From the IMG/VR virus record IMGVR_UViG_3300046467_001246, positions 1 through 27,327 of that record: DNA of 27,327 bases; one strand, 5' to 3'. The notes beneath the pieces were generated by a model that was not told the DNA's origin, searched no databases, and saw nothing but the letters and a program-made list of their open reading frames with translations. The translations under genes were made by a program, and so were the position numbers. Source of the DNA: a virus. This document shows positions 1,189 to 26,126 of this stretch, in pieces (positions within the stretch are counted from its first letter, which is position 1; each line of letters starts with the position of its first letter).

Positions 1189-1505
1189 GCAGACGGTCTG
1201 ATGCTATTAAAATACTCATGACGATCTTTAGGCGGTTTAAAGGTAAGAATGAGGATGCTAGGCGATTTAATAGAGGCAGACGTTCCATGTTTAGATTTAA
1301 AAGACGCGATGATGAAAACTTAGAGGTAATGAGCCGTAGGGATACTAATCGTATCTTTATGGATGTGGATGAACGAAGAGAAGCTGATCAATACGTAAAA
1401 CATTCAAAACTTAGAGCTAAAAAGCTAAAACCTACTAAGGATCTCCGTAAAGGCAAGCGTGACCGGAGACAACGTAATGAACCTATAGGATTCTCGAGGA
1501 ATTAA
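1185..1505 (+). CDS. Very basic small protein between terminase and portal
   Basis: This 106-aa protein is extremely rich in Arg and Lys along its whole length, with runs such as RRFNRGRR and RKGKRDRRQRN, and has few hydrophobic residues. I recognise no family. The composition suggests a nucleic-acid-binding or disordered protein, and the position suggests packaging or head assembly; both are inference. The start is taken as TTG at 1185, which overlaps the terminase stop in a TTGA junction. An in-frame ATG at 1218 is the alternative but has no visible Shine-Dalgarno. The stop overlaps the portal start as TAATG, consistent with translational coupling. Confidence 0.7.
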   Translation: MSRRSDAIKILMTIFRRFKGKNEDARRFNRGRRSMFRFKRRDDENLEVMSRRDTNRIFMDVDERREADQYVKHSKLRAKKLKPTKDLRKGKRDRRQRNEPIGFSRN

Positions 1506-3502
1506 TGGCTAGAAAAGATAAAGACGCTAGTAATAAGGATGAACTTTATAGAGTCTGGTTAGCTAAGATTCAGATGGCCAAGGATTGGCATGAGGAGAAT
1601 AAGGGTAAGGAGATGAAGGAGTACCGCTTAGCCTATGAAGGTCATCAGTGGGCAGAGGAAGATAAGGCTAAGTACAATAATGAGATAGTTGATAATATGG
1701 TCTATATGGTAGTATCAACTTTAGGCCCAGCTATTGGGATGTCCCGTCCTGAAACCTTTGTTAAACCTTTAACCTCTAAAGTAGTAGTCAATGGCCAGCC
1801 TGTAGATCCTTCTATAGCTGCTGCTAGATTAAAGGTCTTAATTGATTACCTTTGGCAGAAACTTGACCTTGAAGTTGAGTTTATGAAAGCTATTGATGAT
1901 TCCCTTATTGCTCATGACGGGTGCTTCTATACAGGTTATGATATGGAAGTGTTTGAAACTGAAACTGATGAAGGGTTTAAGGTGGATTTGATTGAATCTG
2001 AGAATCTTGTATGTGAGAGGATTGATTCTGATTTTATCTTAGTCGATCCAATGAACATGGATCCTGATCTTAAGAAAGCCCGATGGATTGCTATTAAGTG
2101 GCAGAGACAGCTTTCTGAGGTTAAAGAAGATGCAAGGTTTAAGAATACTAAAGATCTCCAGCCAAATGGAACTGTTGTTTTCGATAAGGTTACCCAGAGG
2201 ATTAGGTTTACTATTGGAAATATGGAATCGGGCCAACCTGCTTCTAAGCCTAAAGAAAGATGGGCTGAAGCTGTCGAAGGGTATGATATTTGGGATAAGA
2301 AAAATCAACGTCTTTATACCTTAGTCTTAACTCATGATAAGTTTTTACGGGAGGATGGGGAGTGGCCTTTAGAGTACAATGGGAATGGTTTTCCAATTGA
2401 CTTTCTTTGGTATAACTACAATCCAATCAAAGGTCATGCTTTAGCTGATACTGGTTTATATATGAGTAAACAGAAGGCTTTGAATTTCTTAGAATCCCTC
2501 CAAATAGACCATGCAGATGTTCAATCAAATGTTAAGCTTTTATTAGATAAGAAGAAATTACCTCCTGGGCAGGATGTTGAGAAATGGGCTACTGGGCCAG
2601 CTTGGTCTTGGTTGTATACAAAGGGGGATACTTCAACCGCTGCTACTTTATTAAGTACAGCTCCAGGAGCTGGTGAACTACACGCTGTTATTCAGACATT
2701 GAAACGGGATATCTTAGCTCAGGTTGGAGTTGACCAATTTATGGTTGGGAATGCAGAGAAATTAGAAACAGCTGCAGAAGCTAATAAAATATCCCAAGGA
2801 TCAACTGCTAAACATAGTTTTAGGGCACGAGCTGTTGAAAGGTTTGAATCTAAAGTATTAACTAAACTTGCTAAAGTAGCCCAACAGGTTAGTGAAGAGA
2901 CAGAGATTCCCCTTGATCCTTCACAGTTCTCAGACTTAGCTATTAATAATCCAGACTTGCTTAAAACTGGGAGGTCTCAGGAAGTGGCTGGTGGAGAAGT
3001 TCAAGAGAAATTACCTTTTATGAAGATAGATCAAGATCTACTCTCTGGGGATTTCCTATTTGAAATCAAAGTAGGTTCAACTGGTCATACTAATGAGAGT
3101 ACTGAGAGACAAGATGCTATGGCATTGGGGGGTATGGCTCAACAGAATCCTTTAATTAACAAAGTTGAATTGACTAAGATATTACTTGAAAAGTTTGGAT
3201 TCTCACATTTGATGCCGAGGTTGTTAAGAGATCCTCAAGAGGTTGCGAAGGAGCAGCAACAACAGATGCAACAACGTATGCAAATGCAAATGGCTGAACC
3301 TCAATTGAAGACACAAACTGACCTCCAGAAAACTCAAGCTAAGAACCAAACAGCTGAGAGGGTTGCACAGATTAAAGCTGGAACGGATACTCAGGATGCT
3401 AGTGTTAAAGCTGATTCTGACCAGAAGACTAGGGATAATAACCTAGTAATGAAAGTTCTTGAGTTAGCTAGGAATAAAGATAAGAATGGTGGTAGTAAAT
3501 AA
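1505..3502 (+). CDS. Portal protein
   Basis: This is the dodecameric head vertex ring through which DNA enters and leaves. The 665-aa length, the position directly after terminase, and the sequence style fit P22/SU10-like podovirus portals. The N-terminus is charged and helical (AKDWHEENKGKEMKEYR). A region near NEIVDNMVYMVVSTLGPAIG follows, then a beta-rich wing, and a long C-terminal Gln-rich helical tail (QQQQMQQRMQMQMAEPQLK, from about residue 583). Such a C-terminal barrel or coiled coil is known for P22-type portals. The start ATG overlaps the previous stop (TAATG), and the stop overlaps the zinc-ribbon gene start in the same way. Assignment rests on size, order and composition rather than a catalytic motif. 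Confidence 0.85.
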   Translation: MARKDKDASNKDELYRVWLAKIQMAKDWHEENKGKEMKEYRLAYEGHQWAEEDKAKYNNEIVDNMVYMVVSTLGPAIGMSRPETFVKPLTSKVVVNGQPVDPSIAAARLKVLIDYLWQKLDLEVEFMKAIDDSLIAHDGCFYTGYDMEVFETETDEGFKVDLIESENLVCERIDSDFILVDPMNMDPDLKKARWIAIKWQRQLSEVKEDARFKNTKDLQPNGTVVFDKVTQRIRFTIGNMESGQPASKPKERWAEAVEGYDIWDKKNQRLYTLVLTHDKFLREDGEWPLEYNGNGFPIDFLWYNYNPIKGHALADTGLYMSKQKALNFLESLQIDHADVQSNVKLLLDKKKLPPGQDVEKWATGPAWSWLYTKGDTSTAATLLSTAPGAGELHAVIQTLKRDILAQVGVDQFMVGNAEKLETAAEANKISQGSTAKHSFRARAVERFESKVLTKLAKVAQQVSEETEIPLDPSQFSDLAINNPDLLKTGRSQEVAGGEVQEKLPFMKIDQDLLSGDFLFEIKVGSTGHTNESTERQDAMALGGMAQQNPLINKVELTKILLEKFGFSHLMPRLLRDPQEVAKEQQQQMQQRMQMQMAEPQLKTQTDLQKTQAKNQTAERVAQIKAGTDTQDASVKADSDQKTRDNNLVMKVLELARNKDKNGGSK

Positions 3503-4761: not shown

Positions 4762-5748
4762 ATGGCAGATTTTCGTACAGAGTCACGTACTTATAATGCC
4801 TTACTCACGACTACTTTGCAAGAGTATATACCAACTCTTCAAGATAATATTTTCATTGAAGAGCCACTGTTGTCATGGATGAATGGGAAGCTTGGGAAGG
4901 CTACAGGGCGGGATGGTTCCGCTAAACGAGTCCTCTCAGGTGGTGAATCTATCCTAGAGCCAATTTTGTATGAAGCTAATAGTACAATAAATTCATACTC
5001 TGGTGCCGAGGCTATTGACACCACGCTTCAAGATGGTATGACAAATGCGAAGTATAGTTGGTCTCAGTATTCGGGTACTGTGGGAATCACAGGGCTTGAA
5101 AAGAGATCTAATCGTGGTAAGCATGCTTTGATTAACCTATTAGGATCGAAGACTACGCAACTTGAAAGTTCTCTCTCCGAAAGGTTAAGTACTGATCTGT
5201 GGGCAAGTACAGTAGGGAATGGTGGTAAGAACATCAATGGTATGCCGTTGCATGTTTCTAATTCACTGTCCTCTGGTGGACTAAGCGTTTCAGACATCGG
5301 TGCAACTTGGTTGTCCCCTGTTACAGACACTATTACTTTTTCAAGTGCTGGTGTAACGAAGATGGATAATATGTATAACCAACTTCGTATCCAAGGGGGC
5401 TTTCCGAGAGTTATATTCACCACACCGACTGTCTATGAACTGTATAATGCAGATCAGCAGTCACAGAAACGGTATACAAATACCATGGTAATGGATGCTG
5501 GATTTTTAAATGTTACCTTTAATGAAGTTCCGGTAATATTTGATAATCGTTGTACGTCTGGAGCTATGTATTTCTTGGATCCTAGACATGTGAAGTGGGT
5601 TGTCCACTCTGAAGCTGATTTCACAATGGATGCTGCTGGATTCCAAACCCCAATCGGTCAGGATGTTAGTATGACTAAGATTCTATTCATGGGGCAAACA
5701 ACGACGAATAACCGACGCCGACTTGGTTATTTGACATCCATTACTTAA
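4762..5748 (+). CDS. Major capsid protein
   Basis: A 328-aa protein with the features of an HK97-fold coat. It has an N-terminal arm (YNALLTTTLQEYIPTLQDNIF), an E-loop-like stretch (LEPILYEANSTINSYSGAEAI) and an axial-domain-like C-terminus ending PIGQDVSMTKILFMGQTTTNN. It follows the scaffold gene after 10 bases, with GGAG 8 bases before the ATG, and precedes a small decoration-like gene. This is the expected order for a podovirus-like head module. I assign it from order, length and sequence style; no diagnostic catalytic residues exist for this family. Confidence 0.88.
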   Translation: MADFRTESRTYNALLTTTLQEYIPTLQDNIFIEEPLLSWMNGKLGKATGRDGSAKRVLSGGESILEPILYEANSTINSYSGAEAIDTTLQDGMTNAKYSWSQYSGTVGITGLEKRSNRGKHALINLLGSKTTQLESSLSERLSTDLWASTVGNGGKNINGMPLHVSNSLSSGGLSVSDIGATWLSPVTDTITFSSAGVTKMDNMYNQLRIQGGFPRVIFTTPTVYELYNADQQSQKRYTNTMVMDAGFLNVTFNEVPVIFDNRCTSGAMYFLDPRHVKWVVHSEADFTMDAAGFQTPIGQDVSMTKILFMGQTTTNNRRRLGYLTSIT

Positions 5749-5764
5749 GAAAGGAGGATGACTC

Positions 5765-6259
5765 ATGGCTTTTAAACAAGTTGATACTATAATTCATGGA
5801 ACTCAAAAGTTCGCTGATACTAGTACTTCTCAAGAACATCCTCTGGGGCATATCGTACAGGCATGGGACTCAACTTACCTGACAGGTACTTTTATCTACC
5901 TGAAAGGTGTGGCTTCTACAGTTGTTGGAAGTTGGGTTACTTATGCTGCTGACGATTATACCACTGCTCTTCTAGTTGCTAATGCTGTTGGACCTGTAGC
6001 TGTAGCCATGTCCATTAATGTAGCTAGTCAGTATGGATGGTATCAGATTGATGGTAAAGCTGTTGGTAAGGTTTTATCTGGTTTTGCTGATAATGGCAAT
6101 GTTTATGGAACGGCTACTGCGGGTTCTATAGACGATGCTATTGTTGCTGGGGATAGAGTGCAACATGCCAAGGGTGCTTCAGCCATTGGTACTCCATCTT
6201 CTGGTCTAGCTGAAATGGAGATTCACAGACCATTTGTGAATAATGCTTTAGCTGATTAA
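5765..6259 (+). CDS. Probable head decoration or stabilisation protein
   Basis: A 164-aa protein rich in small residues and short beta strands (TGTFIYLKGVASTVVGSWV, ALLVANAVGPVAVAMS, GDRVQHAKGASAIGTPSSG). It starts 16 bases after the coat gene and has one of the strongest ribosome sites in the window (AAGGAGG, 7 bases before ATG), so a high expression level is inferred. In many phages a small beta-rich gene right after the coat encodes a capsid cement protein. No specific family is recognised with certainty. The transcript seems to end just after it at the hairpin 6267-6300. Confidence 0.65.
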   Translation: MAFKQVDTIIHGTQKFADTSTSQEHPLGHIVQAWDSTYLTGTFIYLKGVASTVVGSWVTYAADDYTTALLVANAVGPVAVAMSINVASQYGWYQIDGKAVGKVLSGFADNGNVYGTATAGSIDDAIVAGDRVQHAKGASAIGTPSSGLAEMEIHRPFVNNALAD

Positions 6260-6266
6260 CCTTCGT

Positions 6267-6300
6267 AAGTTCCTCTCCTTAGAGATAGGGAGGGGAGCTT
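6267..6300 (+). terminator. Terminator-like hairpin after the capsid operon
   Basis: Bases 6267-6278 (aagttcctctcc) pair with 6289-6300 in a 12-bp stem containing two G-T wobbles, around a 10-base loop. It starts eight bases after the decoration gene stop. Only a weak AT-rich tract (gcattaattt) follows rather than a clean T run, so termination may be partial. A partial terminator would leave the capsid genes more highly expressed than the downstream tail genes. Confidence 0.6.
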
Positions 6301-6323
6301 GCATTAATTTAAGGATTTAGACA

Positions 6324-6647
6324 ATGGCATCATGGGCTGAGCTTTTGGGTGGAAGTGGTGGACAGGCAGAGGCAGGAACTACTTACGGGCGTTCTGGAGG
6401 GGAGGGTCCACAGATAGGGATGAGAGGTGGAGATCCTCAAGGTCAAGGCGGGTATTTAGCCCAGTTACTGAGAAAGATGAAAGCGAATCGAGGAGATTTC
6501 ATCCAAGCTACTAAAGATAATGCTGGCGCAGGGAGCTTAAGTGGAGCTATTGGTGGTGGTGGAAGAGCACGAGGAGGGATTGTTAGTAATACTCCAGGAA
6601 TTGTTCAATTATTAAGTTTACTAGCCAATAGGAATAGACAATTCTAA
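6324..6647 (+). CDS. Gly-rich small protein of unknown function
   Basis: A 107-aa protein with a very high Gly content (LLGGSGGQAEAGTTYG, GAIGGGGRARGG) and short hydrophobic helices near the C-terminus (IVQLLSLLAN). AAGGA lies about 10 bases before the ATG. No family is recognised. The position between capsid and tail modules suggests a minor virion or assembly protein, but that is inference from context only. It is the first gene after the terminator-like hairpin. Confidence 0.6.
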   Translation: MASWAELLGGSGGQAEAGTTYGRSGGEGPQIGMRGGDPQGQGGYLAQLLRKMKANRGDFIQATKDNAGAGSLSGAIGGGGRARGGIVSNTPGIVQLLSLLANRNRQF

Positions 6648-6804
6648 CCCCCGGTGATGACTTGAGACGCGTAGATGGAATAGCTCATGGACTCCGGCAC
6701 TCCAGCTCTAAGTTTTATACTTTCGTCTTGAGATCAACCGTGTCGTGGCTGAGGGATATGGTTAGAGTGATGGTTAATCCTTCCTCTAACCGTATCTCGG
6801 GGGT
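6647..6804 (+). ncRNA. Candidate structured RNA in an otherwise gene-poor gap
   Basis: The 216 bases between 6648 and 6863 hold no convincing gene but fold well. Hairpin P3 pairs 6755-6767 with 6784-6796: 13 bp with one T-G wobble and a 16-base loop. A second helix pairs 6661-6669 with 6724-6732 (9 bp, two wobbles) and contains an inner stem (agc/gct plus tgga/tcca, 6682-6707). A closing 7-bp GC-rich helix pairs acccccg (6647-6653) with cgggggt (6798-6804). P3 abuts this closing helix, giving a three-way junction. P3 is unlikely to be chance; the 7-bp helix alone could be. It could be a leader, a small RNA or merely a processing hairpin. It is not a tRNA: there is no T-arm. Confidence 0.35.
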
Positions 6805-6874
6805 ATTGGAAGAAATTAGAAATATGGTAAATGATTCAATCACTTACCACATAAAGGGGATGTATGCCAGTTAA
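6662..6874 (+). CDS. Doubtful 70-aa open frame overlapping the RNA candidate
   Basis: A TTG-initiated frame of 70 codons fills the gap before the next gene and overlaps its start by 11 bases. There is no Shine-Dalgarno before the TTG. The product (LRHSSSKFYTFVLRSTVSW and onward) has no recognisable domain. An internal ATG at 6758, with GAGGG two bases upstream, would give only 38 residues. The same bases form the hairpins described for the RNA candidate. I list it because the gap is otherwise empty, but I think it is more likely non-coding. Confidence 0.2.
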   Translation: MRRVDGIAHGLRHSSSKFYTFVLRSTVSWLRDMVRVMVNPSSNRISGVLEEIRNMVNDSITYHIKGMYAS

Positions 6875-7739
6875 TCTAAACGAAAACAGCATGCAACAAT
6901 TTCAAAATTTACCAGCTCATATTCAACAAAGAATAGCTGATCAGTCTGCAATGGATCGAACTGGTCAATATGGTGGTGTATTTCCAGCATCCCAAGCTGA
7001 ACAAGCCGCTGATAGGTTTAGGTCTATGACCTTTGATGATGCAATGTATGGTGGTATGGATGCGGCTTTGACTGTACTTGGTGGGGCAGAAAAAGCATTT
7101 AGCCCAATACAAACTTTATTTCCTGACATAAGTCGACCAAGAGATGAGTTTTATGGAATGAGTCCTGAAGAAACACAACAAGGATTAGATTCCCATGCGG
7201 CTAGTTATTATGATATGGTTGGGCGTGTTCCTGATGAGACAGTAGATAGGTTCGATGCTGTTACTAATCCATTAACCTTAGACAGAGCTAATTATCCCCA
7301 ACAGGGGGGTCCTGATCCTGATAGTTTTAACGCCTTTATGAGAGCCTTTGGGAGCCAAGTAGAAACTCCTATTAACTTAGGAATGGATGCACTTATACTT
7401 AAAGGGCTTATGAAGGGGAGGCCTATAAAGAGTTTACTGGCGACTGTTAGAAAAAAGATGGAGAAAATGAAATCTAAGTATGCAAAAAAACCAGATGCTA
7501 AGATGGAACTATCTTTATCTCCACCAAAAAGGTCACAAGAGGTTGGAATTATAGATCCATTTAAAGATAAAAAGGAAATGGCTGCGTTGAGACAAAGGTT
7601 AGCAGAAGCAGAACGTAGACAAATTGCTTCAAAGCAACAAGAGAGAACTGGATATATGCCTGCGTCTCATCGAAGAAATAGAGATAGACAACAGAAACAG
7701 ATTGACGATCTTCGGAGATTGACAGATGGCCAAGACTAG
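6864..7739 (+). CDS. Unrecognised 291-aa phage protein
   Basis: The N-terminal half is Gln-, Gly- and Pro-containing and appears loosely ordered (MQQFQNLPAHIQQRIADQSA, SPEETQQGLDSHAASYYDMV). A short hydrophobic segment (INLGMDALILKGLMKG, about residues 171-186) precedes a long basic, helical C-terminus (VRKKMEKMKSKYAKK, KKEMAALRQRLAEAERRQ) that looks like a coiled coil. The ribosome site AAGGGGA lies just before ATG 6864. The stop overlaps the adaptor gene by 14 bases. No family is recognised. Small helical proteins in this place may be minor head or ejection proteins, which is only a guess from position. Confidence 0.65.
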   Translation: MPVNLNENSMQQFQNLPAHIQQRIADQSAMDRTGQYGGVFPASQAEQAADRFRSMTFDDAMYGGMDAALTVLGGAEKAFSPIQTLFPDISRPRDEFYGMSPEETQQGLDSHAASYYDMVGRVPDETVDRFDAVTNPLTLDRANYPQQGGPDPDSFNAFMRAFGSQVETPINLGMDALILKGLMKGRPIKSLLATVRKKMEKMKSKYAKKPDAKMELSLSPPKRSQEVGIIDPFKDKKEMAALRQRLAEAERRQIASKQQERTGYMPASHRRNRDRQQKQIDDLRRLTDGQD

Positions 7740-8706
7740 TTTTTTAGATCTGACAAATAAAGTTTTAAGGTATATTAATCAAGCTGAGGTAGCTACGGTT
7801 GTTTCTCCTACCGGGCATGCAGCTATTGTAACTGATAAGATTAATGAAGCTCTTAATACTGTTTACACTAAAACAAATTGGTATTCGTTATACACAGAGC
7901 GAAAATTTAGGACATCACAAAATGTTACTATTTCGGTAGATGATTATACTTCAACTTCCGATACAATAACCTTTACCCGTAATGGTACGACTACGGTAGT
8001 AACTGAAGGGGTAGATTGGACAAATGCGACTGATAACGATACATCAGCTACGGCTTTGGCAGCTGCAATTGTTACTTCGTTTGGCACCACTGTCGTGGAA
8101 ACTGAAGTCAGTAATGAAAATATTATCGTTAGGAACAGGGCTGAAGATGATGTTGGGTTTACTGTTATTGCTACTTCTGATTCTGCTGTATATACGGTAG
8201 CTTTAGCGAATAATCCTTTGTATGATATGGCTTCTGACTTTGGGAGATCAGTGGCGTTATTAGATTCAACAGGGAATACAGCTTTGGTTGAGGTATCCCC
8301 AATGGCTATATCACATGTAGACCCAGATGATTCCCAATCGGGTAATCCATCTTCCTATGCAGCTTTTGGGAATCAGTTCAGACTATACCCGACGCCATCT
8401 GCAACTTTGACAATTTTTGATAGATATTTCAAGATCCCTGCTACTTTAACAGCAAATGATGATACCATTGATTTACCTTTAGAATGTGAGGCTCTTATTT
8501 TAAAATTCGTAGAAAGTGAGATGGCTTTTTATAGCAACGCTTCAATTAAAGGATCTACCTTACTAGCTCATTATAAATTAATGTTGGATGATGCTATAGA
8601 GATGAATGAATACATATTAAGCAAACAGAATAATATACCCTCTAGGAGAGTTGGTACTGTATATCCAATGATACCTGTGATGTTTCCTTCAGGATACCCG
8701 AGATAA
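7726..8706 (+). CDS. Head-tail adaptor (SU10-type), with inserted beta domain
   Basis: A 326-aa protein whose outer parts match the adaptor that docks under the portal in SU10-like podoviruses. It has a helical N-terminus (FLDLTNKVLRYINQAE, INEALNTVYTKTNWYSLYTE) and the typical FRLYPTPS strand (residues 218-225). Then comes YFKIPATLTANDDTIDLP and the helix ECEALILKFVESEMAFYSN. Residues about 78-170 form an extra Thr/Val-rich beta module (DTITFTRNGTTTVVTEGVDW and ALAAAIVTSFG) of the type seen appended to phage tail proteins. It overlaps the previous gene by 14 bases and is followed after 3 bases by the nozzle-like gene, as expected for a short-tail assembly line. Confidence 0.72.
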   Translation: MAKTSFLDLTNKVLRYINQAEVATVVSPTGHAAIVTDKINEALNTVYTKTNWYSLYTERKFRTSQNVTISVDDYTSTSDTITFTRNGTTTVVTEGVDWTNATDNDTSATALAAAIVTSFGTTVVETEVSNENIIVRNRAEDDVGFTVIATSDSAVYTVALANNPLYDMASDFGRSVALLDSTGNTALVEVSPMAISHVDPDDSQSGNPSSYAAFGNQFRLYPTPSATLTIFDRYFKIPATLTANDDTIDLPLECEALILKFVESEMAFYSNASIKGSTLLAHYKLMLDDAIEMNEYILSKQNNIPSRRVGTVYPMIPVMFPSGYPR

Positions 8707-8709
8707 GTT

Positions 8710-10299
8710 ATGCCAGTCGAAGCTGATGCAACTGCTTTACATGTATATAAAATGCCAAAGTTAGGTGTTAATTTATATGTAGAAAAGTCTGAAATTAATA
8801 AAGAGGAGGCTGTTAAGACTACGAATATGTTCTGGCGGGATGGGATGCAGAAGAGGAAAGGCTATGCGAAGTTTGAGACTGATCAAGTTCAGAGTTCTAA
8901 GAAAGTTACTTCAGTTCACAGATTTTACTATGGTACGTCTTCTAGACAGACCTTAGCAGCAGCTGGGACTGCCATAAGATATCATGATGGGTCTACTTGG
9001 CAAGATGCTTATACTAGTTTAACTGATGGTGCTCAAGTATTAATGGAGACTTGGGGAGCAACCGATAAAGTTTATGTAGCAAATGGGAATGAAGCTCCAA
9101 AGTCATGGTCTGGGAGTTCTTTAGCTGCTTTAACTGGTCTTACTTCGGCCGTGTCGCAGTTTTTAGCGTATCAAGATAGGCTTTTGTATTTATCAGCTGC
9201 TGCTCCTGGAGAACTTGGGTGGTCAAATTCATTTGTAGATGATGCTTGGAGCAGTGGATCTACTACTGGAGTAAGACCAGATTCTAACCTACATGGGATG
9301 GTTATTCATGCTGCCCAAGTTAGTGATGCAGGATTAAAGGCTAAAGTTTTACTGGCTGGTGCAAATGGGATGTATTTGTTTAGTGGGAATGATTTAAGAA
9401 CGCCTGCAACGACTGGGGATTATAAGATAGAATCTTTAGCTACTAGATATGGATGTAATGCTCCTTTAACGATGCAATGGACACCTGCAGGTACAATATA
9501 TCTTGGGACAGATAAGATGGTTTATATACTTCCATTTGAGTCATTAACTCCAGTTCCAGTAGGCCATAAAATAACAGCCGAAGGGAATCAGAAAGAGGAT
9601 GGTTTAGAGTCGATTCCAGCTGGGCAATTAGCTAATGCTTCTGCGGTCTATCATGATGGGTTTTACAAACTTTCTATAGCTGCAACTGGAGGAACTACCA
9701 ATTCAAGACAATGGTGGCTTGATATTCCGAGATTAAAGAGAGATGATAACAGATATTGGGGACCTTGGTATGGGCCGATGAAGGGGATGAACTTTCATGG
9801 ACAGACTGTATTATCCGGTCCTGGGGATAGTGGAGAGTGGTATGCGGGAGAGAGTAGTAATACAACTGGAGGATTTGTGTATGAAGCTAGCCAGAGTGGG
9901 ACATTCTCTGATTCAGGAACAGCTATGGATATAGAACTCCAAACTTTTTACAATCCTTTGTCGGTAGCTACACTTAATAAAGTCTTACATCACCTTGAGT
10001 TTGAGTTATTGTCAACATCAGGAAGTTATAATATTGATTACTTTGACACAATTCAGAAAATAAAAAATGGTGATATTTTAGCTCTAGTAGATGATACTGT
10101 TTCATGGGGAGCTGAATCATGGGGAAGTTTTAAATGGCAAGCTACTGGACCATCTAGAGTGAGATTAGGGATAGATCCGGCTATTCATACTAAGTATTTA
10201 TCAGTATTGGTTAAATTTACAAGTTCGACTGATGTGAGAATTTATAAGATTATGGCAGAAGAACTTCAACAATATGATCCTTTGGGGGTGATAGAATGA
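8710..10299 (+). CDS. Tail nozzle / tubular protein (beta-propeller-like)
   Basis: A 529-aa, beta-rich protein that would form the distal tube of a short tail. The N-terminus (LGVNLYVEKSEINKEEAVKT, then DGMQKRKGYAKFETD) has the usual form of T7 gp12/P22 gp10-like nozzle proteins. Several repeats of the type KVYVANGNEAPKSW, FLAYQDRLLYLSAAAPGELG and KVLLAGANGMYLFSGNDL look like blades of a beta-propeller. The gene follows the adaptor directly and overlaps the next gene by four bases (ATGA). The assignment is structural by analogy and order. Confidence 0.72.
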   Translation: MPVEADATALHVYKMPKLGVNLYVEKSEINKEEAVKTTNMFWRDGMQKRKGYAKFETDQVQSSKKVTSVHRFYYGTSSRQTLAAAGTAIRYHDGSTWQDAYTSLTDGAQVLMETWGATDKVYVANGNEAPKSWSGSSLAALTGLTSAVSQFLAYQDRLLYLSAAAPGELGWSNSFVDDAWSSGSTTGVRPDSNLHGMVIHAAQVSDAGLKAKVLLAGANGMYLFSGNDLRTPATTGDYKIESLATRYGCNAPLTMQWTPAGTIYLGTDKMVYILPFESLTPVPVGHKITAEGNQKEDGLESIPAGQLANASAVYHDGFYKLSIAATGGTTNSRQWWLDIPRLKRDDNRYWGPWYGPMKGMNFHGQTVLSGPGDSGEWYAGESSNTTGGFVYEASQSGTFSDSGTAMDIELQTFYNPLSVATLNKVLHHLEFELLSTSGSYNIDYFDTIQKIKNGDILALVDDTVSWGAESWGSFKWQATGPSRVRLGIDPAIHTKYLSVLVKFTSSTDVRIYKIMAEELQQYDPLGVIE

Positions 10300-11050: not shown

Positions 11051-11380
11051 ATGGCAAGCGAATTATTAAAAGTATCACGCAACATTGCAGTAACCAATAG
11101 TGAAAGAGTTCTTATTGATGGAGTAAGTGGACATACTTACGTAATTCTTTCAATTTTGTTTTGCGAAACGGCAGGAGCTGCAGAAACATTTGACCTTTAT
11201 ATCGATAATGATGGGAGTGGAACAGATATTGAGATTTATTCCGATCAAGCACTAGGTGCTAATGAAACTTTTGAGCATACAACTAAATTTGTTATTGGAG
11301 GGACAGATCATCTATGTGCAGCAACGGCTAATTCTGCCGATGTGGATGTTGTGGTCAGTTATTTAGATCAAACATTATAA
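11051..11380 (+). CDS. Small beta-rich virion-like protein (copy 2)
   Basis: A 109-aa beta-sandwich-like protein (GHTYVILSILFCETAGAAET, FDLYIDNDGSGTDIEIYSD) with AGGAG 6 bases before the ATG. The C-terminus (VDVVVSYLDQTL) echoes that of the 118-aa protein two genes upstream. Similar short proteins with an IxxGxTxxxxSI-like pattern occur near fibre genes of many phages, but I cannot name a family. A role in tail or fibre attachment is inferred from position. Confidence 0.65.
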   Translation: MASELLKVSRNIAVTNSERVLIDGVSGHTYVILSILFCETAGAAETFDLYIDNDGSGTDIEIYSDQALGANETFEHTTKFVIGGTDHLCAATANSADVDVVVSYLDQTL

Positions 11381-11400: not shown

Positions 11401-12738
11401 ATGAGTGGAATAGTTAATAAAAATGCTGGTAGGGGTTCAGGAACAATTGGAACTATTACAACTGACCTTAGTGGTGACAGTTCACCCCAACTTGGTGGAT
11501 TTTTGGATGCGAATGGAAACTATATTCAAATGCAAAAAGGCGGAGATATATCTTCTGCTTCTCCTACTGTTATAGATACGGATGGTGACTTCTTTGCGGT
11601 GACCGGGACAACAAATTTCAGTGCTTTTACGGTAGCGGCTGACCGTCATTTCTTTCTGGAATTTGGAGGGGCATTGACGATGACCCACGGTAATGGAACG
11701 CTTGATCTGCCTGGCGCAGCAAATATTACGACTGCGGCCTCCGATGTTGGTGAATTTATATCTACTGCATCCAATGTAGTCACCTGCGTAAACTATACTA
11801 AAAGAGATGGCACAGCAATAATTGGTGGTTTGACTAATCGAGCTGTTAATTCTATGACAGGAGATGGGTCAGACACTACTTTATCTTTATCTCAATCACC
11901 GGGTTCAGTAAATAATATAAATGCTTTTGTTGATGGTGTATCACAAATTCCAGGAACTGATTTTACTCTAGATGGGAGTACATTAACGTGGACAACGGCC
12001 CCTGCTCTAGGAACTAAAGCAGTTGCTGTCTCAGGTGCTTTGAGTGATATAGGAACGCCTTCAGATGGGACGGTAACTCTCGCTAAGATGGCTGTTAATA
12101 GTGTTGATAGCGACCAATATGTAGATGGAAGTATTGATGCTGCCCATTTGTCAGCTAATTCTATTGATAGCGATTCTTATGTTGACGCGAGTATCGACCT
12201 TGCCCATATCGCTACTAATCAAATTGATGAAACTTTATTGAAAGATGCTTTCGTTGCAGATTTTACAGATGCTACTGTAACAGCCTCAGATTATTTCCTT
12301 CACGGAGATGCAACCGATAGTGGCAATACAAAGAAGGATTCTATACAGGGGATTTTGGACTTGGCTGGTGGTGGTCTTACATCCAAGATGATTGGAGCTA
12401 CATACGACCTTTCAACAACGGGCGACTTTGCTGTTACTGGTGTAGGCTTTGTTCCAACCTGTGTGATTTTATTTATTAACAAAGATAGTGACCCTGCGGC
12501 TTCTTGGGGATTCACTAGCTCCACTATAACAGACGATGGCAACGTGCATAACTTCCACAACTCTACCGCAGAGAGGTTTAACACAGGTGGTACACTTTCA
12601 GATATATACACAGCCGCAAGTAACAACTCGACTTTGATAGTCAAATCCTATGATGCGGATGGAGCTACATTCACAAAAGCTAAACCAGCGGGTTCACCTA
12701 CTGGGACTGGCTACTGTAAATTCTTATTTATGAAATAG
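11401..12738 (+). CDS. Tail fibre 1 (receptor-binding)
   Basis: A 445-aa fibre-like protein with four parts. A short N-terminal anchor (residues 1-46, GIVNKNAGRGSGTIGTITTD) is followed by the shared beta module (about 47-140, GGDISSASPTVIDTDGDFF ... CVNYTKRDGTAI). A repetitive shaft (about 225-320) carries repeats such as NSVDSDQYVDGSIDAAHL and NSIDSDSYVDASIDLAHI, then GDATDSGNTKKDSIQGILDL. The C-terminal tip (about 327-445) reads GATYDLSTTGDFAVTGVGF ... GTGYCKFLFMK and is probably the host-contacting domain. The shared module recurs in the next two fibres. Base usage becomes visibly richer in C from around 12380, suggesting the tip was exchanged. Confidence 0.78.
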   Translation: MSGIVNKNAGRGSGTIGTITTDLSGDSSPQLGGFLDANGNYIQMQKGGDISSASPTVIDTDGDFFAVTGTTNFSAFTVAADRHFFLEFGGALTMTHGNGTLDLPGAANITTAASDVGEFISTASNVVTCVNYTKRDGTAIIGGLTNRAVNSMTGDGSDTTLSLSQSPGSVNNINAFVDGVSQIPGTDFTLDGSTLTWTTAPALGTKAVAVSGALSDIGTPSDGTVTLAKMAVNSVDSDQYVDGSIDAAHLSANSIDSDSYVDASIDLAHIATNQIDETLLKDAFVADFTDATVTASDYFLHGDATDSGNTKKDSIQGILDLAGGGLTSKMIGATYDLSTTGDFAVTGVGFVPTCVILFINKDSDPAASWGFTSSTITDDGNVHNFHNSTAERFNTGGTLSDIYTAASNNSTLIVKSYDADGATFTKAKPAGSPTGTGYCKFLFMK

Positions 12739-12745
12739 GGGAACA

Positions 12746-13090
12746 ATGAGATATTGCAAACAAATTTCAACCGGGAAATTATTAGAAAGCCAAGGCGGTG
12801 GCAACCCTGACAATCCTGAACATCTAGAGTGTTTAAAGCGGAATGCTATTTCCTCTGGTATCCCCGCAAACGATATTGAGGTGTTTTATGGTGATGATGC
12901 TGACCTTACCCAAATGGTAATTGATTCACGTTCTTCAATTGACCAATGGAAAATAGATATAAAAGAAACGGACTCTGGTATGCCCCGGCACATGGAAGAC
13001 TTAATAACCAACAACGCATCCTTGGTCATCCCGGCAGAGATGAAGAAACGCTATGATGATAAAATTAAAGTTAGAGGAGAACGCCCATGA
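12746..13090 (+). CDS. Putative fibre-associated small protein 1
   Basis: A 114-aa hydrophilic protein. Its last 36 residues (from MPRHMEDLITNNASLVIPAE at residue 79) are closely similar, without gaps, to the C-terminus of the 84-aa protein at 13971-14225 (23 of 36 identical by eye). The N-terminal part (MRYCKQISTGKLLESQGGGN) differs. Small proteins carrying a W..., MPR.xED-like tail are common just behind phage fibre genes and may be assembly chaperones; that role is inference. The stop overlaps the start of fibre 2 as ATGA. Confidence 0.68.
   Translation: MRYCKQISTGKLLESQGGGNPDNPEHLECLKRNAISSGIPANDIEVFYGDDADLTQMVIDSRSSIDQWKIDIKETDSGMPRHMEDLITNNASLVIPAEMKKRYDDKIKVRGERP
12980..13090 (+). repeat. 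Direct repeat, copy A (left of fibre 2)
   Basis: These 111 bases encode the last 36 codons plus stop of the small protein. They align gap-free with 14115-14225. The first two thirds are nearly identical, including a perfect 19-base match (13019-13037 with 14154-14172); the last third has diverged. Both copies end in ATGA, which starts the next gene. Confidence 0.85.
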
Positions 13091-13956
13091 GTGTGACTAA
13101 AGTAACAGGAATGATGCAGACCTCCACAAAGGGTGGTGATATACCTAGCGCATCCCCTACCGTGATTGATACCGATGGTGACTACTTTGATGTGACGGGA
13201 ACCACCAACTTTGCGGCTTTCACTGTTGTCGCAGGACGTAGGTTTACCATACAGTTTGACGGTGCTTTGACCATGACCCATCATGCTACCACCTTGGATT
13301 TACCGGGTGGGGCCAATATTACGACTGCCGCTGGAGATGTTGCAGAGTTCTTTGCGACAGGGACGAATACGGTTCAATGTGTGAACTATACTAAGGCTGA
13401 TGGGACTGCGGTTGTAGCGGCGGCTGGTGGTGCTTGGACTTACATTTCTACCGTTACTGCCGCTGGTGCTTCCACTGTTTCCTTCTCAGGCCTTGCCACT
13501 TCTACCTATGATGTCTTTGCTTGCTTCTTTTCTAACGTATACCCAAGTGCTGACAATGATTTGTTATTGCGTATGGAAGAAGCTGGTGGGCCATCAGTTG
13601 ATTCAGGGACAAACTATTATGGCTTTACTAGCGGTGGGAATAATAATGCTGCCACACTTGTCGGCTTGAACACGCTAGGGGGAAGTTCTTGGAAATTAAC
13701 AGCGACAACTGTTGATGGAGCCTCTACGGGAACAACCGATGGGGTTATCTACTTTTCCCAAATGCAGAAAACCAGTAAACGTCCTGCTGTTTGGGGAACA
13801 ATGAAATACACAGGGAACGGGACAGAAATGGGTGTTATGACATTTGGTGGTAGTAACGTAGCGGCAGACTCAGACGGATATAGTGGCTTCCAGTTTTTGC
13901 CTGGAGGCGGGACTTTCACAGGAACATTCAGGCTATATGGTTTAGCTAAGAGCTAA
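13087..13956 (+). CDS. Tail fibre 2 (receptor-binding)
   Basis: A 289-aa fibre-like protein. After only 15 residues comes the shared module (about 16-110, GGDIPSASPTVIDTDGDYF ... CVNYTKADGTAVV), followed directly by a tip domain. The tip begins WTYISTVTAAGASTVSFSGL, includes VYPSADNDLLLRMEEAGGP, and ends GTFTGTFRLYGLAKS. This tip pattern recurs in receptor-binding ends of many phage fibres. There is no long shaft and almost no N-terminal anchor, so it may trimerise onto another fibre or be an alternative tip carrier. It is bracketed by the 111-base direct repeats and has a GAGGAG site 7 bases before its ATG. Confidence 0.77.
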   Translation: MSVTKVTGMMQTSTKGGDIPSASPTVIDTDGDYFDVTGTTNFAAFTVVAGRRFTIQFDGALTMTHHATTLDLPGGANITTAAGDVAEFFATGTNTVQCVNYTKADGTAVVAAAGGAWTYISTVTAAGASTVSFSGLATSTYDVFACFFSNVYPSADNDLLLRMEEAGGPSVDSGTNYYGFTSGGNNNAATLVGLNTLGGSSWKLTATTVDGASTGTTDGVIYFSQMQKTSKRPAVWGTMKYTGNGTEMGVMTFGGSNVAADSDGYSGFQFLPGGGTFTGTFRLYGLAKS

Positions 13957-13970
13957 AGGATAAAAATAAA

Positions 13971-14225
13971 ATGGCAAGACATCATGCAACACCGCAAGGG
14001 AACATTCCCTTCACCGCTCAAGAAGAATCAGACAGGGACGCAGAGGAAGTGGTATGGGCCAATGCAAAACCTATGGAAAACTGGAAGTCATCCATGCAAG
14101 GAACTGACTCCCAAATGCCCCGCCCCATGGAAGACTTGATTACCAGCAACGACTCCTTGGTCATCCCGGCAGTAATGAGGGAACGCTATGACGAAAAGGT
14201 GGCGTTAAGGGCGACTAAACCATGA
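13971..14225 (+). CDS. Putative fibre-associated small protein 2
   Basis: An 84-aa hydrophilic protein whose C-terminus (MPRPMEDLITSNDSLVIPAV and onward) duplicates that of the 114-aa protein behind fibre 1. The N-terminal part (ARHHATPQGNIPFTAQEESD, VVWANAKPMENW) is different. The Trp followed by a charged linker and MPR..ED motif is typical of small phage proteins next to fibres, possibly assembly factors. AAGGA lies upstream of the ATG, and the stop overlaps the lipoprotein-like gene start as ATGA. Confidence 0.68.
   Translation: MARHHATPQGNIPFTAQEESDRDAEEVVWANAKPMENWKSSMQGTDSQMPRPMEDLITSNDSLVIPAVMRERYDEKVALRATKP
14115..14225 (+). repeat. Direct repeat, copy B (right of fibre 2)
   Basis: Second copy of the 111-base repeat found at 12980-13090; it encodes the corresponding 36 C-terminal codons of the 84-aa protein. 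The two copies lie in the same orientation 1135 bases apart and flank the whole fibre 2 gene. Confidence 0.85.
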
Positions 14226-14377
14226 CACGACTACTTTTAATTATTATAATGGCAACTCAATTGGGGTGCGCTGTTGTTCTAGAAACTGCGGTTGGGAGCT
14301 TTATCGGAGGCTTGGCGGTTGAAGTGGTGAAGGACAAACTTGATGAAGCCAAAAAAGATGAGGCACCTCAACCATAA
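14222..14377 (+). CDS. Small lipoprotein-like membrane peptide (51 aa)
   Basis: This 51-residue frame starts at ATG 14222 in an ATGA overlap with the previous gene. It reads MTRLLLIIIMATQLGCAVVL, then a Gly-containing hydrophobic stretch (TAVGSFIGGLAVEVV), then a charged tail ending DEAPQP. The Arg plus hydrophobic start followed by LGC looks like a signal peptidase II lipobox, although the -3 residue is Gln, which is not ideal. It could be an outer-membrane lipoprotein, for example an o-spanin-like protein, or a small pore-forming peptide. It is followed by a TAATG overlap to the next small gene. Confidence 0.6.
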   Translation: MTRLLLIIIMATQLGCAVVLETAVGSFIGGLAVEVVKDKLDEAKKDEAPQP

Positions 14378-14533: not shown

Positions 14534-14872
14534 GTGGAAAGAGCGAATGAAATTTCAGGAATTATTGAAACCCTTGGGATTCCAGTTGCAGTTGCGCTGG
14601 CTTTTGGGGCAGGTGGTTGGTGGTTAATCAGATATATTCTAACCTCTATTGTCGCAAAAATCACCGAGGCACAAACACAAACTGAGGATGACATTCGTGA
14701 TTTAAAAACAATAGTTATTGGATTGATAGATAAAACAAGTAGTGCACAAAATGACCTGATCCGTTTAGACACAATGATTCGGGTTAGGTATGGATTGCCC
14801 CCAGATGAACCCCGTATAGGTAGGGCATCTGAACCTGGGAAGAGGGCTAGTAATAGAACAGGTAAAAAATGA
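14534..14872 (+). CDS. Single-membrane-segment protein with coiled-coil tail
   Basis: A 112-aa protein with one hydrophobic segment near the N-terminus (about residues 12-35, GIPVAVALAFGAGGWWLIRY), a heptad-like helix (ITEAQTQTEDDIRDLKTIVI, then GLIDKTSSAQNDLIRLDTMI) and a basic disordered C-terminus. The topology fits an inner-membrane protein such as a holin-like or i-spanin-like protein. The start is taken as GTG 14534, two bases after the previous stop. An ATG at 14532 in a TAATG junction is in another frame and would stop after 31 codons. The call as a lysis-type membrane protein is tentative. Confidence 0.6.
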   Translation: MERANEISGIIETLGIPVAVALAFGAGGWWLIRYILTSIVAKITEAQTQTEDDIRDLKTIVIGLIDKTSSAQNDLIRLDTMIRVRYGLPPDEPRIGRASEPGKRASNRTGKK

Positions 14873-14903: not shown

Positions 14904-16514
14904 ATGTCAGAGCTAGGATCAGGGAGTGGTACTTCATATCCAGCTTCCCTAGATGTAGATAATTCTGTCGAAGTTGATTCGTCGACAACCGCAAGGGCTG
15001 ATGTTCCGAATGATTTAGCTGCGGCTATTATAGCTGTTCAAAATGAATTAGGAACAGACCCGGCTGGGTCTTTAACGAATGTTAAAACTTTTTTACAGAC
15101 AGAGCATTCTACGAATGGAACTCATGGAGATTTGACAGTTGGAAGTTTGACCTTATCTAAGAGCCTCAGATTAAAACAAGGAGCTGATGTAGCTTCTGCT
15201 TCTGATCTTGCTATTGATATAGATGGGAATCTCTTTGATGTTACTGGGACTACCACTATTAACACAATGAGGACTAAAGGAATTGGGACTTCGGTTGTTC
15301 TTCAATTTGATGGGGCTTGCCAGTTGACTCATAATGCTACTAATTTTTTCATTCCTGGGAAGGCAAATTATACGACCGCAGCAGGGGATGTGTTTATGTT
15401 TTATGAGTATGCTTCTGCGGATTGGAGATGTACAGGGTATGCTTTAGCAAGTGGTAGGGCTATTATAGCATCCGCTGGAGCTTCATCTGCTACAACAAGC
15501 GCAGAGGGGTTAGTAGAAATAGCTACTCAGGCTGAAGTTAATACTGGGACTGATACTTCTAGATCTATAACTCCTGCAACTTTAGATGGATTTGTTAATG
15601 GTAAAACTGATACAGCTGTAACAGCTGCTGATTCAATCGTGTTCGCTGATGCGACAGATAGCAATAAAGCTAAAAAAGACACAGTTCAGGGAATTATAGA
15701 TCTACTTAGCTCATCTATTGCTCAAGGAGACCTAAAAACAACTACTGGGGATTTGACTACTACAGCAACACATCTTCATACAACTGGGGCGGGAGGAGAG
15801 TATGGATTTTGGCCTACAGTTAAAACTGCTATTGGATTTCAAAGTCATCATATTGTAGCTTCTCTACTAAATCAAACAGCTACATCTACCTATGCGTCCA
15901 TTTACAATGAGCCTGGAACAAGTTTTATTCAAAATTTTGATATGGGTGTTTCTAATGTTGATACTCTAACTGTAAGACATAGGTATGTTCAAGCGTCTCC
16001 TCCTTATAATATAGGAGATGGGGAATGTCACTCTTTTATATTTTTGTTAGTTGAAAATAATAGTGGAAATATTTTAGGTGGATATCATGCACCTGATCCT
16101 GTATGGGCTAATAATGGGCCTACTTGTATACATCCAGAGTATAAACGAAATGGAAAAAGTTATCGAAATAAGAAAATAATAGATAAATCTAAATCTTTTG
16201 AGGATCCTAGCAGGTTTACTTTTGTTGAACAGGAAATAACTAATGAGTTTAAGAACTCAGATATGGATTTAATTCCTCATCCTTGGGGTGGAAATGATTT
16301 AAGTGATAAGTCTATTATTTTAATTGATCCTTGTGATTCGATAGTAAGACAAGCAGAATTAATGAAGGAATCTGGGGAGGAAGCATTAGATGAACTATTC
16401 CATAAGGATTATATTAGATTTGGAAATGAACATATTATTGGGAGATGTACCCCTTGTAATCATGGGATAGATGAGGTAATGGTAGTTAAACCTACATGGA
16501 AGAATAGTCAATAA
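14904..16514 (+). CDS. Tail fibre 3 with large C-terminal domain
   Basis: A 536-aa fibre-like protein. Residues 1-90 form an N-terminal part with RADVPNDLAAAIIAVQNELG. Residues about 92-190 are the shared module (GADVASASDLAIDIDGNLFD ... ASGRAII). Then come the fibre repeat EGLVEIATQAEVNTGTDTS and a shaft segment (ATDSNKAKKDTVQGIIDLL) that matches fibre 1. From about residue 295 a different domain follows (GAGGEYGFWPTVKTAIGFQS, RYVQASPPYNIGDGE, YHAPDPVWANNGPTCIHPEY). It ends in a charged, Cys-containing region (IDPCDS, GRCTPCNHG). The C-terminal 240 residues are not assigned to a known enzyme. A strong ribosome site (AAGGAG) precedes the ATG. Confidence 0.75.
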   Translation: MSELGSGSGTSYPASLDVDNSVEVDSSTTARADVPNDLAAAIIAVQNELGTDPAGSLTNVKTFLQTEHSTNGTHGDLTVGSLTLSKSLRLKQGADVASASDLAIDIDGNLFDVTGTTTINTMRTKGIGTSVVLQFDGACQLTHNATNFFIPGKANYTTAAGDVFMFYEYASADWRCTGYALASGRAIIASAGASSATTSAEGLVEIATQAEVNTGTDTSRSITPATLDGFVNGKTDTAVTAADSIVFADATDSNKAKKDTVQGIIDLLSSSIAQGDLKTTTGDLTTTATHLHTTGAGGEYGFWPTVKTAIGFQSHHIVASLLNQTATSTYASIYNEPGTSFIQNFDMGVSNVDTLTVRHRYVQASPPYNIGDGECHSFIFLLVENNSGNILGGYHAPDPVWANNGPTCIHPEYKRNGKSYRNKKIIDKSKSFEDPSRFTFVEQEITNEFKNSDMDLIPHPWGGNDLSDKSIILIDPCDSIVRQAELMKESGEEALDELFHKDYIRFGNEHIIGRCTPCNHGIDEVMVVKPTWKNSQ

Positions 16515-16526
16515 AGGATACATAAA

Positions 16527-17411
16527 ATGGGATTTTTTGCAGAAACCTCAAGCACAGATGCAGATTCAATACTTCAATCTGGATTCGGTAATTTATTTGG
16601 AGGCCCAGAGAGGGCTAAAGGATTAACCGAGGATTTATTAGGTATAGGTCAGACTAGATTAGCTGATACGTTAGACCCTTTTCAAATTCCCGAGACAACT
16701 CCAGGGTTTGACTTTAATTCTTTCTTATCCAGTTCTAAGTTTGGTCAGCCTTTGTATAATGAGTTGATTAATCCTGAGTTTGCACCACAGACAGCAAGTG
16801 AGCAGTCTTTGATTAATGAGCTTATTTCTCAGATGCAAGGTCAGACAGCTGTGAGAGGACTAGATCCAACATTTGCTTCGATAGCTGAGACTATTGCTCC
16901 TCAGTTGGTTGGTTTAAGACAACAAAGACTTGGTAATTTGCAGGGTGCTTTTGGTGGGGAGTTGGAAGGAGTATTAGGTGGGAGAGGCCAAGACATCGGT
17001 GAAAGGGGAGCTGATATTGCAGCTGGTCTTACTGGTCGTGGGCAAGACATAGATTTTAGGTCAGATCAGGTTGCTCAGGCTGCTAATATACTTACTTCGG
17101 TGCTTGGACTTGATAGGCTGGATACAGTTGTGGGCGGTGGTGCTTCAGAGTCGGAAGGTAATGTTAGTGCTGGGATATTAGGTGCAGCTGCTTCTGCTGC
17201 TGCTCTCTTTAGTGACAGACGATTAAAAGAGAATATAATTAAGGTAGGGCAATTAGCTAATGGCTTATTTGTGTATTCCTTTAACTATCTCTGGGATAAA
17301 TCTCCGGTTATAGGGGTCATGGCTGACGAGGTAAGGAAAGTACTACCTCATGCAGTGTATGTACATTCATCTGGTTATGATATGGTTGATTATGGAGAGG
17401 TATTAACATAA
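16527..17411 (+). CDS. Probable internal virion protein with C-terminal S74-like segment
   Basis: A 294-aa protein. The first 200 residues are helical and Gly/Gln/Leu-rich, with an internal GRGQDI repeat (152-157 and 171-175), as in ejection or minor head proteins. A short hydrophobic Ala-rich stretch (AGILGAAASAAALF) leads into a C-terminal segment with the hallmarks of the intramolecular chaperone of endosialidase (peptidase S74): FSDRRLKENIIKVGQLANG, then IGVMADEVRKVLPHAV and GYDMVDYGEVLT. The family's Ser and Lys, spaced five apart, correspond to S229 and K234. The segment (about 66 residues) is shorter than most S74 domains. The stop overlaps the next start (TAATG). Confidence 0.72.
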   Translation: MGFFAETSSTDADSILQSGFGNLFGGPERAKGLTEDLLGIGQTRLADTLDPFQIPETTPGFDFNSFLSSSKFGQPLYNELINPEFAPQTASEQSLINELISQMQGQTAVRGLDPTFASIAETIAPQLVGLRQQRLGNLQGAFGGELEGVLGGRGQDIGERGADIAAGLTGRGQDIDFRSDQVAQAANILTSVLGLDRLDTVVGGGASESEGNVSAGILGAAASAAALFSDRRLKENIIKVGQLANGLFVYSFNYLWDKSPVIGVMADEVRKVLPHAVYVHSSGYDMVDYGEVLT

Positions 17412-22351: not shown

Positions 22352-23567
22352 GTTTCTCCTTTAGATTATAAAGTAACCCTTTAACTCCTTTACATGTAAC
22401 AACTTCAACATCCCCTTGTTCGGCTAGGGTATTAATAACTTCCTTAAACTCTGTTGCGTTTAGATAGTGAGAATTTCTTTTAAGTAATAAAGAATGCTTA
22501 ACTGGTAAGTTACCTTTATTTTGTTCTCTTATTAAGTACCCTAAGATCCTATCGATATCCTTACTCGACTTGCTAAACGCAGTTCCCCTGAAGGCGAGGT
22601 GCATAAGTCTCTCAGCTTTGTTAAGTAATCGCAGCGCAATTCTAATGTGGGTAGCTTGGATCTTGAGATTTCCGTTGCATACTCCATCATCACCTGCCGA
22701 GATACAGGTTGCAATTTTAAGCACGTGATCTCCTTTCCTGCCATAGTAACCTCTAAGTCGTAAATCAGTTCCTTCTGTTCTATGATTATACCATCTTGAG
22801 TACTCATCTCTAGCCTCCGTTGTAATTTTAAAAGCTCCATTTAAGTTATTGATTCGTATTAGATCTCCCACCAACTCGGTTCTGAGGGCGATTTCCTCAA
22901 GGCTAAGTTCTGGCCAAGGATTTGAGAGTCGAGGTTCTTCTGCAACAACGAAAACAACACGGCCTGTAAATCCTCCCTCGACCGTGTCCCCAGGAAGGTT
23001 CGTAGACATCCAGTCAAGAGTTGTGGCTCCAACCAAATTGATGCACACGTTCGACATATGAAACTCTCCCGATGCTTTTGTTTTGTAGTCAGCAGAGCTT
23101 GGGCACTCGTAAAATGAAGTAAGCAGAGGGATGATTCCCGAGTGGAACGCACTCGCTCCAAGGAATGTAGCCAGCTCAGGAACGAAAATGGTAATAGCGT
23201 TGTCCAATTTATGTTCCTTCTCTCCTCTTGATAATTCAACACATAATTTCTCCGCGGTCATTTTATCTCTATTAATGGTAGCAACTTGAGCGGTTTGAAG
23301 TATGTCGGAAATTGCGACTCCTATTGCGGTCGACTTCCGACAAAATGCTGATTCAGCTACTAAGATAATATACTGGTTTGGGTAGAGTGTATAAAATCCT
23401 CTATTAATCCAAACCTTTCTTTGTAAAGTACACGATAAAGCTGCAAGGGCTGACCAGATGTGGAAAGAAGAAGGGGATTCCATTTGATCTGTGTATTTCA
23501 GATATTTATAAATCCAATTCTTTGAATCCAACTGTTCAAGCCCTTCGGCCCGAAAGTCGGTATTCAT
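22344..23567 (-). CDS. DUF3987-like P-loop ATPase (replication helicase/primase-type)
   Basis: A 407-aa protein with the layout of DUF3987-family phage and mobile-element ATPases. An N-terminal helical region (WSALAALSCTLQRKVWINRG) leads to a non-standard P-loop AESAFCRKST (residues 71-80), in which Arg stands before the Lys as is usual in that family. A Walker B-like strand follows (ITIFVPELATFL, 125-136), then a sensor strand (INLVGATTLDWM), and an arginine-finger-like GGFTGRVVFV (198-207). The C-terminal 90 residues look like a winged helix (KDIDRILGYLIREQNKGN, NATEFKEVINTLAEQGDVEV). It directly follows the polymerase gene (TAATG overlap; GGAGG site), which supports a replication helicase or initiator role. 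Confidence 0.7.
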   Translation of the reverse strand: MNTDFRAEGLEQLDSKNWIYKYLKYTDQMESPSSFHIWSALAALSCTLQRKVWINRGFYTLYPNQYIILVAESAFCRKSTAIGVAISDILQTAQVATINRDKMTAEKLCVELSRGEKEHKLDNAITIFVPELATFLGASAFHSGIIPLLTSFYECPSSADYKTKASGEFHMSNVCINLVGATTLDWMSTNLPGDTVEGGFTGRVVFVVAEEPRLSNPWPELSLEEIALRTELVGDLIRINNLNGAFKITTEARDEYSRWYNHRTEGTDLRLRGYYGRKGDHVLKIATCISAGDDGVCNGNLKIQATHIRIALRLLNKAERLMHLAFRGTAFSKSSKDIDRILGYLIREQNKGNLPVKHSLLLKRNSHYLNATEFKEVINTLAEQGDVEVVTCKGVKGLLYNLKEKHD

Positions 23568-25915: not shown

Positions 25916-26126
25916 CTTGAGCATTCCTTTCCTTTTTAGTTTCAGCTTTCTGTTTCTTTTCGGACTCCCGCTTTCCAGCCCTTAACTGCTCAACAAAATT
26001 ATGGAAGACATTTCGAAAGATGTGGGATAGGTCTCCATGGGATTGACAGAGGTTTTCTTCTATATAATTAACATCATCCCATAGTAACATCATAGAGATA
26101 TGCTTTAAGCGTTTAGTACTCGTCAT
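25806..26126 (-). CDS. Ribbon-helix-helix-like small basic protein
   Basis: About 106 aa. The N-terminal part reads RLKHISMMLLWDDVNYIEEN followed by GDLSHIFRNVFHNFVEQLRA. This is a strand then two helices, in the manner of ribbon-helix-helix DNA-binding proteins. The C-terminal half is a low-complexity tail rich in Lys, Arg, Ser and Pro (TKRKSSPSRGSARKGRK). The second ATG (26126), 6 bases after AAGGA, is preferred over the first (26129). The last 119 bases lie inside the polymerase gene in another frame when that gene is read from 25924. It may be a transcription regulator or replication accessory protein; the fold call is tentative. Confidence 0.55.
   Translation of the reverse strand: MTSTKRLKHISMMLLWDDVNYIEENLCQSHGDLSHIFRNVFHNFVEQLRAGKRESEKKQKAETKKERNAQDDTNTDNPPKAKTSKSNRPTKRKSSPSRGSARKGRK

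Follow-up and report, generated by a model that had tools for sequence, protein, structure and literature searches.

A repeat flanking a viral tail-fibre gene as the probable common half of two fibre chaperones

The fibre region and its two repeats

The window, by which we mean the whole stretch of DNA that was analysed, is a 27,327-base virus record that carries a terminase gene and a P22-type portal (1505-3502). An annotated phage collection held no record resembling its portal, its 529-aa protein or its fibre region (DNA level), and the near relatives of the window are uncultured virus contigs only. No relatives were found through the 494-aa protein of the right arm or, in genome contigs, through the 529-aa protein. 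The genes and repeats of the fibre region are the following.

11051-11380, + strand: g109b, left neighbour of the cassettes, common to the virus contigs L060 (74% aa) and L054 (64% aa)
11401-12738, + strand: fibre 1 (FIB1), 445 aa, with the shared module at aa 37-145 and a C-domain of its own at about aa 319-445
11535-11749, + strand: shared fibre-module repeat, fibre 1 copy, 67% over 218 columns with 13128-13342
12746-13090, + strand: SM1, 114 aa, probable fibre chaperone; N-half unlike that of SM2, C-half (aa 65-114) shared
12980-13090, + strand: left copy of the 111-base repeat, the end of SM1; core 12963-13062
13087-13956, + strand: fibre 2 (FIB2), 289 aa, with the shared module at aa 6-114 and a C-domain at aa 110-289
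13128-13342, + strand: shared fibre-module repeat, fibre 2 copy, paired with 11535-11749
13971-14225, + strand: SM2, 84 aa, probable fibre chaperone; N-half aa 1-35, C-half aa 35-84, the latter shared with SM1
14115-14225, + strand: right copy of the 111-base repeat, the end of SM2; core 14098-14197
14534-14872, + strand: g112, right neighbour, common to L002 and L013-L020 (66-81% aa)
15175-15253, + strand: third shared-module copy, within fibre 3 (14904-16514), 71% nt

A preliminary description of this DNA had reported a gap-free repeat of 111 bases around fibre 2, with a perfect 19-base match, formed by the last 36 codons and the stop of the small genes on either side, and this is borne out. 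The two copies align without a gap over 37 codons including the stop, with 81 of the 111 positions identical (73%) and a longest exact run of 19 bases. As the runner-up among 111-base matches in the window scores only 47 (maximum on the other strand 48; mean 28.4, s.d. 4.6), the match lies far from chance. The solid core is the best local alignment, in which 12963-13062 and 14098-14197 agree at 81 of 100 positions; of the last 28 bases only 11 match, six of them within the common CCATGA, so the length first given takes in a poor tail. Both copies do close in the ATGA of the following gene, as had been noted: 13087-13090 starts fibre 2, and 14222-14225 starts a 51-aa lipoprotein-like gene. The same residue stands in 24 of the 37 codons (stop included), and across the whole C-half of the small genes 28 of 50 residues are identical and 48% of third positions differ. 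Read from these differences, the repeat is an old coding homology and not a fresh duplication, namely the C-half common to two paralogous small genes, SM1 and SM2. The window also contains 25 inverted-repeat pairs, all imperfect (70-81%), and none of them convincingly brackets the fibre genes.

Both genes upstream of the small genes can be recognized as tail fibres by fibre-type sequence or fold. FIB1 matches the PHROG tail fiber protein phrog_18673 over aa 159-244 (E=1.8e-11), and the C-domain of FIB2 is modelled as a confident beta-sandwich. That C-domain also matches a profile of the fibre C-domains of other phages, built without the window, at E=7.3e-25; its nearest BFVD models are mostly uncharacterised viral proteins, one being named Tail fiber protein (E=1e-12). 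No convincing relatives were found for the C-domain of FIB1 or for the N-half of SM1. Receptor binding by the fibres is presumed.

The fibres share a second, longer repeat that the preliminary description lacked, a module of about 105 residues which the profile finds in fibres 1, 2 and 3 (FIB1, E=1.7e-56; FIB3, E=4.6e-56 over aa 84-192), FIB1 and FIB2 being 64% identical over 116 residues. The same module lies close to the end of another fibre (aa 311-417) in the virus contig L002, and it is therefore a portable building block that need not be the part attached to the tail. A role as the tail-attachment domain, which we had considered, is unsupported given that position.

A little further downstream, 16527-17411 encodes a fibre-like protein that carries an intramolecular chaperone of its own, Peptidase_S74 (PF13884, E=2e-8), and this phage apparently relies on built-in as well as separate chaperones for its fibres.

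Small genes and the fibres that precede them

What kind of proteins are SM1 and SM2? Against Pfam and PHROG, SM2 gave no match and SM1 none of relevance, and both fall below the cut-off of Phage_tail_APC (PF16778) and of the PHROG tail fiber assembly families. Yet of ten small genes tested at the same position, seven match PF16778 through their C-half, together with PHROG tail fiber assembly families; the N-half is of the SM2 type or related to it in six of the seven and of another kind in one (L025). A comparison of the SM C-half with the APC C-half gave an hhalign probability of 0.3%, from a weak profile of two SM rows, which falls short of homology. Nor were relatives of the SM C-half confirmed in viral and genome contig searches with A1 and A2, with a degenerate MPRxMED DNA pattern, or by tblastn against phages and plasmids. 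The N-half of SM2 matches an N-half profile built without the window at E=1.4e-14. The model of SM2 is modest (pTM 0.44) and consists of an N-terminal beta-hairpin with helices and a helical C-half; it has no solved relative by fold, and a PDB fold search gave no match at E <= 0.001 for either fibre 2 or SM2. SM2 is a small gene directly after a fibre, with an N-half specific to that fibre. SM1 and SM2 thus probably work like fibre assembly chaperones while standing outside the formal family; their chaperone activity, and oligomerisation by their C-half, are what we infer.

The similarity between the two cassettes is crossed. When the fibres were compared, none of 500 shuffles reached the real score in the shared module, whereas 156 of 500 did so in the C-parts; for the small genes the figures were 374 of 500 in the N-halves and 0 of 500 in the C-halves. 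The outer parts of the cassettes (fibre front and small-gene back) therefore agree, and the middle, made up of fibre back and small-gene front, differs. A further locus (L026) has the same anatomy: consecutive small genes there have unlike N-halves, share 147 bases at 82% and enclose a fibre. The idea that a genome always has C-halves of one kind proved false, as L027, L034 and L051 mix types.

The differing middle parts have relatives elsewhere, and they occur together. The C-domain of FIB2 resembles a fibre at positions 2258-3211 of another contig (L014), and the N-half of SM2 resembles that of the small gene next to it, but the C-halves of these two small genes differ. A scan with both fibre C-domains (FIB2 and L014) yielded 38 loci. 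In the loci examined, an N-half profile from which the window and L014 had been left out matched 35 ORFs, all of them directly downstream of a FIB2-type fibre (33 by script, and two, in L027 and L028, by inspection, an over-long start call having hidden the adjacency); SM2 was among them and SM1 was not. With adjacent pairs counted once per small-gene sequence, in loci of other marine phages picked by the fibre, the SM2-type N-half was present in 29 of 40 small genes after FIB2-type fibres and in 0 of 67 after other genes (Fisher p=2e-17). Without the eight profile seeds among the 29, the counts are 21/32 and 0/67 (p=8e-14). Another kind of small gene follows the remaining 11 of the 40 FIB2-type fibres.

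We also ran the test in reverse, starting from the small gene of L043: a search with it drew 12 named phages, each with a small gene of the same C-half type (the APC C-half). The N-half and the fibre C-domain were both present in four phages and both absent in eight (p=0.002); the query contained both halves, so that the set is not free of choice, and in the three strong cases the match extended along the entire gene. The four are HTVC019P, HTVC010P, HTVC034P and, weakly, HTVC035P, and p=0.006 if the last is left out. Among these genes with a common C-half, the fibre C-domain goes with the N-half, and several unlike C-halves were found behind the same N-half. At the level of sequence, then, the FIB2-type C-domain is tracked by the SM2-type N-half, a result that belongs to the pair of fibre 2 and SM2 only.

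Origin of the repeat and exchange at the fibre site

We consider it likely that the locus holds two tandem cassettes, each of a tail fibre and its cognate chaperone, and that the 111-base repeat is the fibre-independent half of that chaperone. Each cassette would consist of a tail fibre and then its own small intermolecular fibre chaperone, the N-half of which would recognise the C-terminal domain of the fibre encoded directly before it. The helical C-half would have a fibre-independent job, most likely that of oligomerising the chaperone to start fibre folding. On this arrangement the cassettes would have in common a fibre module at their left end and a chaperone C-half at their right end, and the fibre C-domain and chaperone N-half would tend to travel as one piece, with a new tip arriving together with a fitting chaperone half. 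The 111-base repeat would then be the conserved chaperone C-half in two paralogues.

The repeat could also be a mere by-product of an ancient tandem duplication of a fibre and a small gene, the halves of which diverged at different rates with no need for exchange. Both repeats are indeed old (third positions differ at 0.66 in the fibre module and 0.48 in the small genes), and the shared pieces stand in the same order in both cassettes. However, no residual similarity is left in the fibre C-parts or in the small-gene N-halves, and relatives of the SM2 N-half and the fibre 2 C-domain are paired in unrelated phages. Together these observations point to replacement rather than drift, and we regard duplication by itself as a somewhat unlikely account.

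The preliminary description had proposed instead that fibre 2 is an exchangeable cassette, in which recombination between the repeat copies removes or inserts the fibre with one small gene. Its first element, exchange at the site, is upheld by the content of relatives. In L002, which is 76% identical in the 529-aa protein, both flanks are shared (g118, 80% aa; g112, 66% aa), and between them lie a different fibre, proteins of 109 and 183 aa, a glycine-rich fibre-like protein, a tryptophan halogenase and a 122-aa small gene. L060 and L054 have g109b and then three fibre ORFs with one small gene, g109b being all that they have in common with the window, and more distant phages with g112 carry several units of fibre and small gene. 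A single fixed two-unit layout in all relatives, which would have spoken against the proposal, was looked for and is contradicted by L002, L060 and L054. Judged by gene content, the fibre site is variable and exchangeable. As a side observation, the halogenase gene in the fibre region of this near relative (L002:6160-7749) matches PF04820 at E=1e-111.

The second element, the route through the 111-base repeat, is plausible, and we think it unlikely to be the explanation of the locus as active exchange. The copies around fibre 2 are direct and in frame, as expected of a direct-repeat cassette, and both close in ATGA. Relatives vary in content at the site, but no near relative spans the repeat region, and no junction of a deletion or a swap came to light. 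Because of its 73% identity and a longest exact run of 19 bases, the repeat is a weak recombination substrate, and the fibre-module repeat, at an offset of 1593, is a competing recombination arm. Among unchanged residues, synonymous differences amount to 9/24 in the small-gene repeat and 41/67 in the fibre module; the lower proportion in the former is not significant (p=0.057), and recent gene conversion between the small-gene copies is suggestive at most. Deletion or swapping through the repeat stays plausible; the repeat could supply the homology for a loss, a gain or a swap, though above all it marks a module boundary.

Finally, the small proteins might be virion parts (fibre-tip adhesins or collar pieces) and not chaperones that leave the fibre, since Mu Tfa remains at the tip of the fibre (PMC10579305, PMC9608196) and sequence alone cannot separate a tip subunit from a chaperone, but this seems quite improbable, as their position, their size and the C-half family of their relatives fit assembly chaperones and the Pam3 chaperone was not found in virions (PMC9608196).

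Relation to known fibre chaperones and other genes of the window

Two tandem cassettes of fibre and cognate chaperone, the reading that we prefer, resemble several known systems. In Pam3 gp25, and by comparison Mu Tfa, a variable N-domain binds the fibre and a conserved helical C-domain trimerises, so the variable-N, conserved-C build of fibre chaperones is already known (PMC9608196). Like these proteins and PF16778, SM1 and SM2 are small genes after a fibre with a variable N-half (paired with the fibre in SM2 and presumably in SM1) and a conserved helical C-half; unlike them, they have no family match, and no alignment links their C-half to the APC type. The pelagiphages HTVC019P, HTVC010P and HTVC034P, like the window, have a fibre with a FIB2-type C-domain and then a small gene with an SM2-type N-half. 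However, they carry three ORFs of about 205 aa before one small gene, the C-half of which is of the Phage_tail_APC type, and they have no repeat of the SM C-half.

That fibre and chaperone modules are common to different phages is also known, and the Alteromonas phages A5, V22 and P24 resemble the window in that a fibre and its cognate chaperone occur together in distantly related phages (PMC10579305, PMC7289586). Those phages share the whole fibre-chaperone pair, whereas in the window the probable boundary lies inside the chaperone gene. What is new here is evidence from sequence comparison that a fibre C-domain and a chaperone N-half travel together, with the boundary apparently inside the chaperone gene. 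It is possible, and we propose it only tentatively, that marine tail-fibre chaperones in general are two-part adaptors, with an N-half that travels with the fibre tip, an interchangeable C-half and exchange that breaks inside the chaperone gene, the C-half of SM1 and SM2 being an undescribed chaperone-core family. If the chaperone N-half does match the fibre tip, the tip family of an unknown marine fibre could be read from the small gene behind it, and natural variants would reveal the joining points of functional fibres. Furthermore, the sequence rule that couples a fibre C-domain to the N-half of the next gene could trace the exchange of host recognition in uncultured phages.

Several other features of the window deserve mention. 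On the minus strand, 23567-25924 encodes a DNA polymerase A with a fused N-terminal uracil DNA glycosylase domain (PF00476 and PF03167), and 26424-27101 a DNA methylase (PF01555, E=2.4e-27). Relatives appear to be mosaic outside the fibre region too: against window positions 5700-9576, identity steps sharply from 72% to 90% at 6645 in L012 and from 76% to 95% between 6313 and 7726 in L003. Just before g112, the 51-aa lipoprotein-like gene (14222-14377) has a counterpart in the same place at L014:7859-8005; the two are alike beyond shuffles (0/500), and these short genes are possibly related to lysis.
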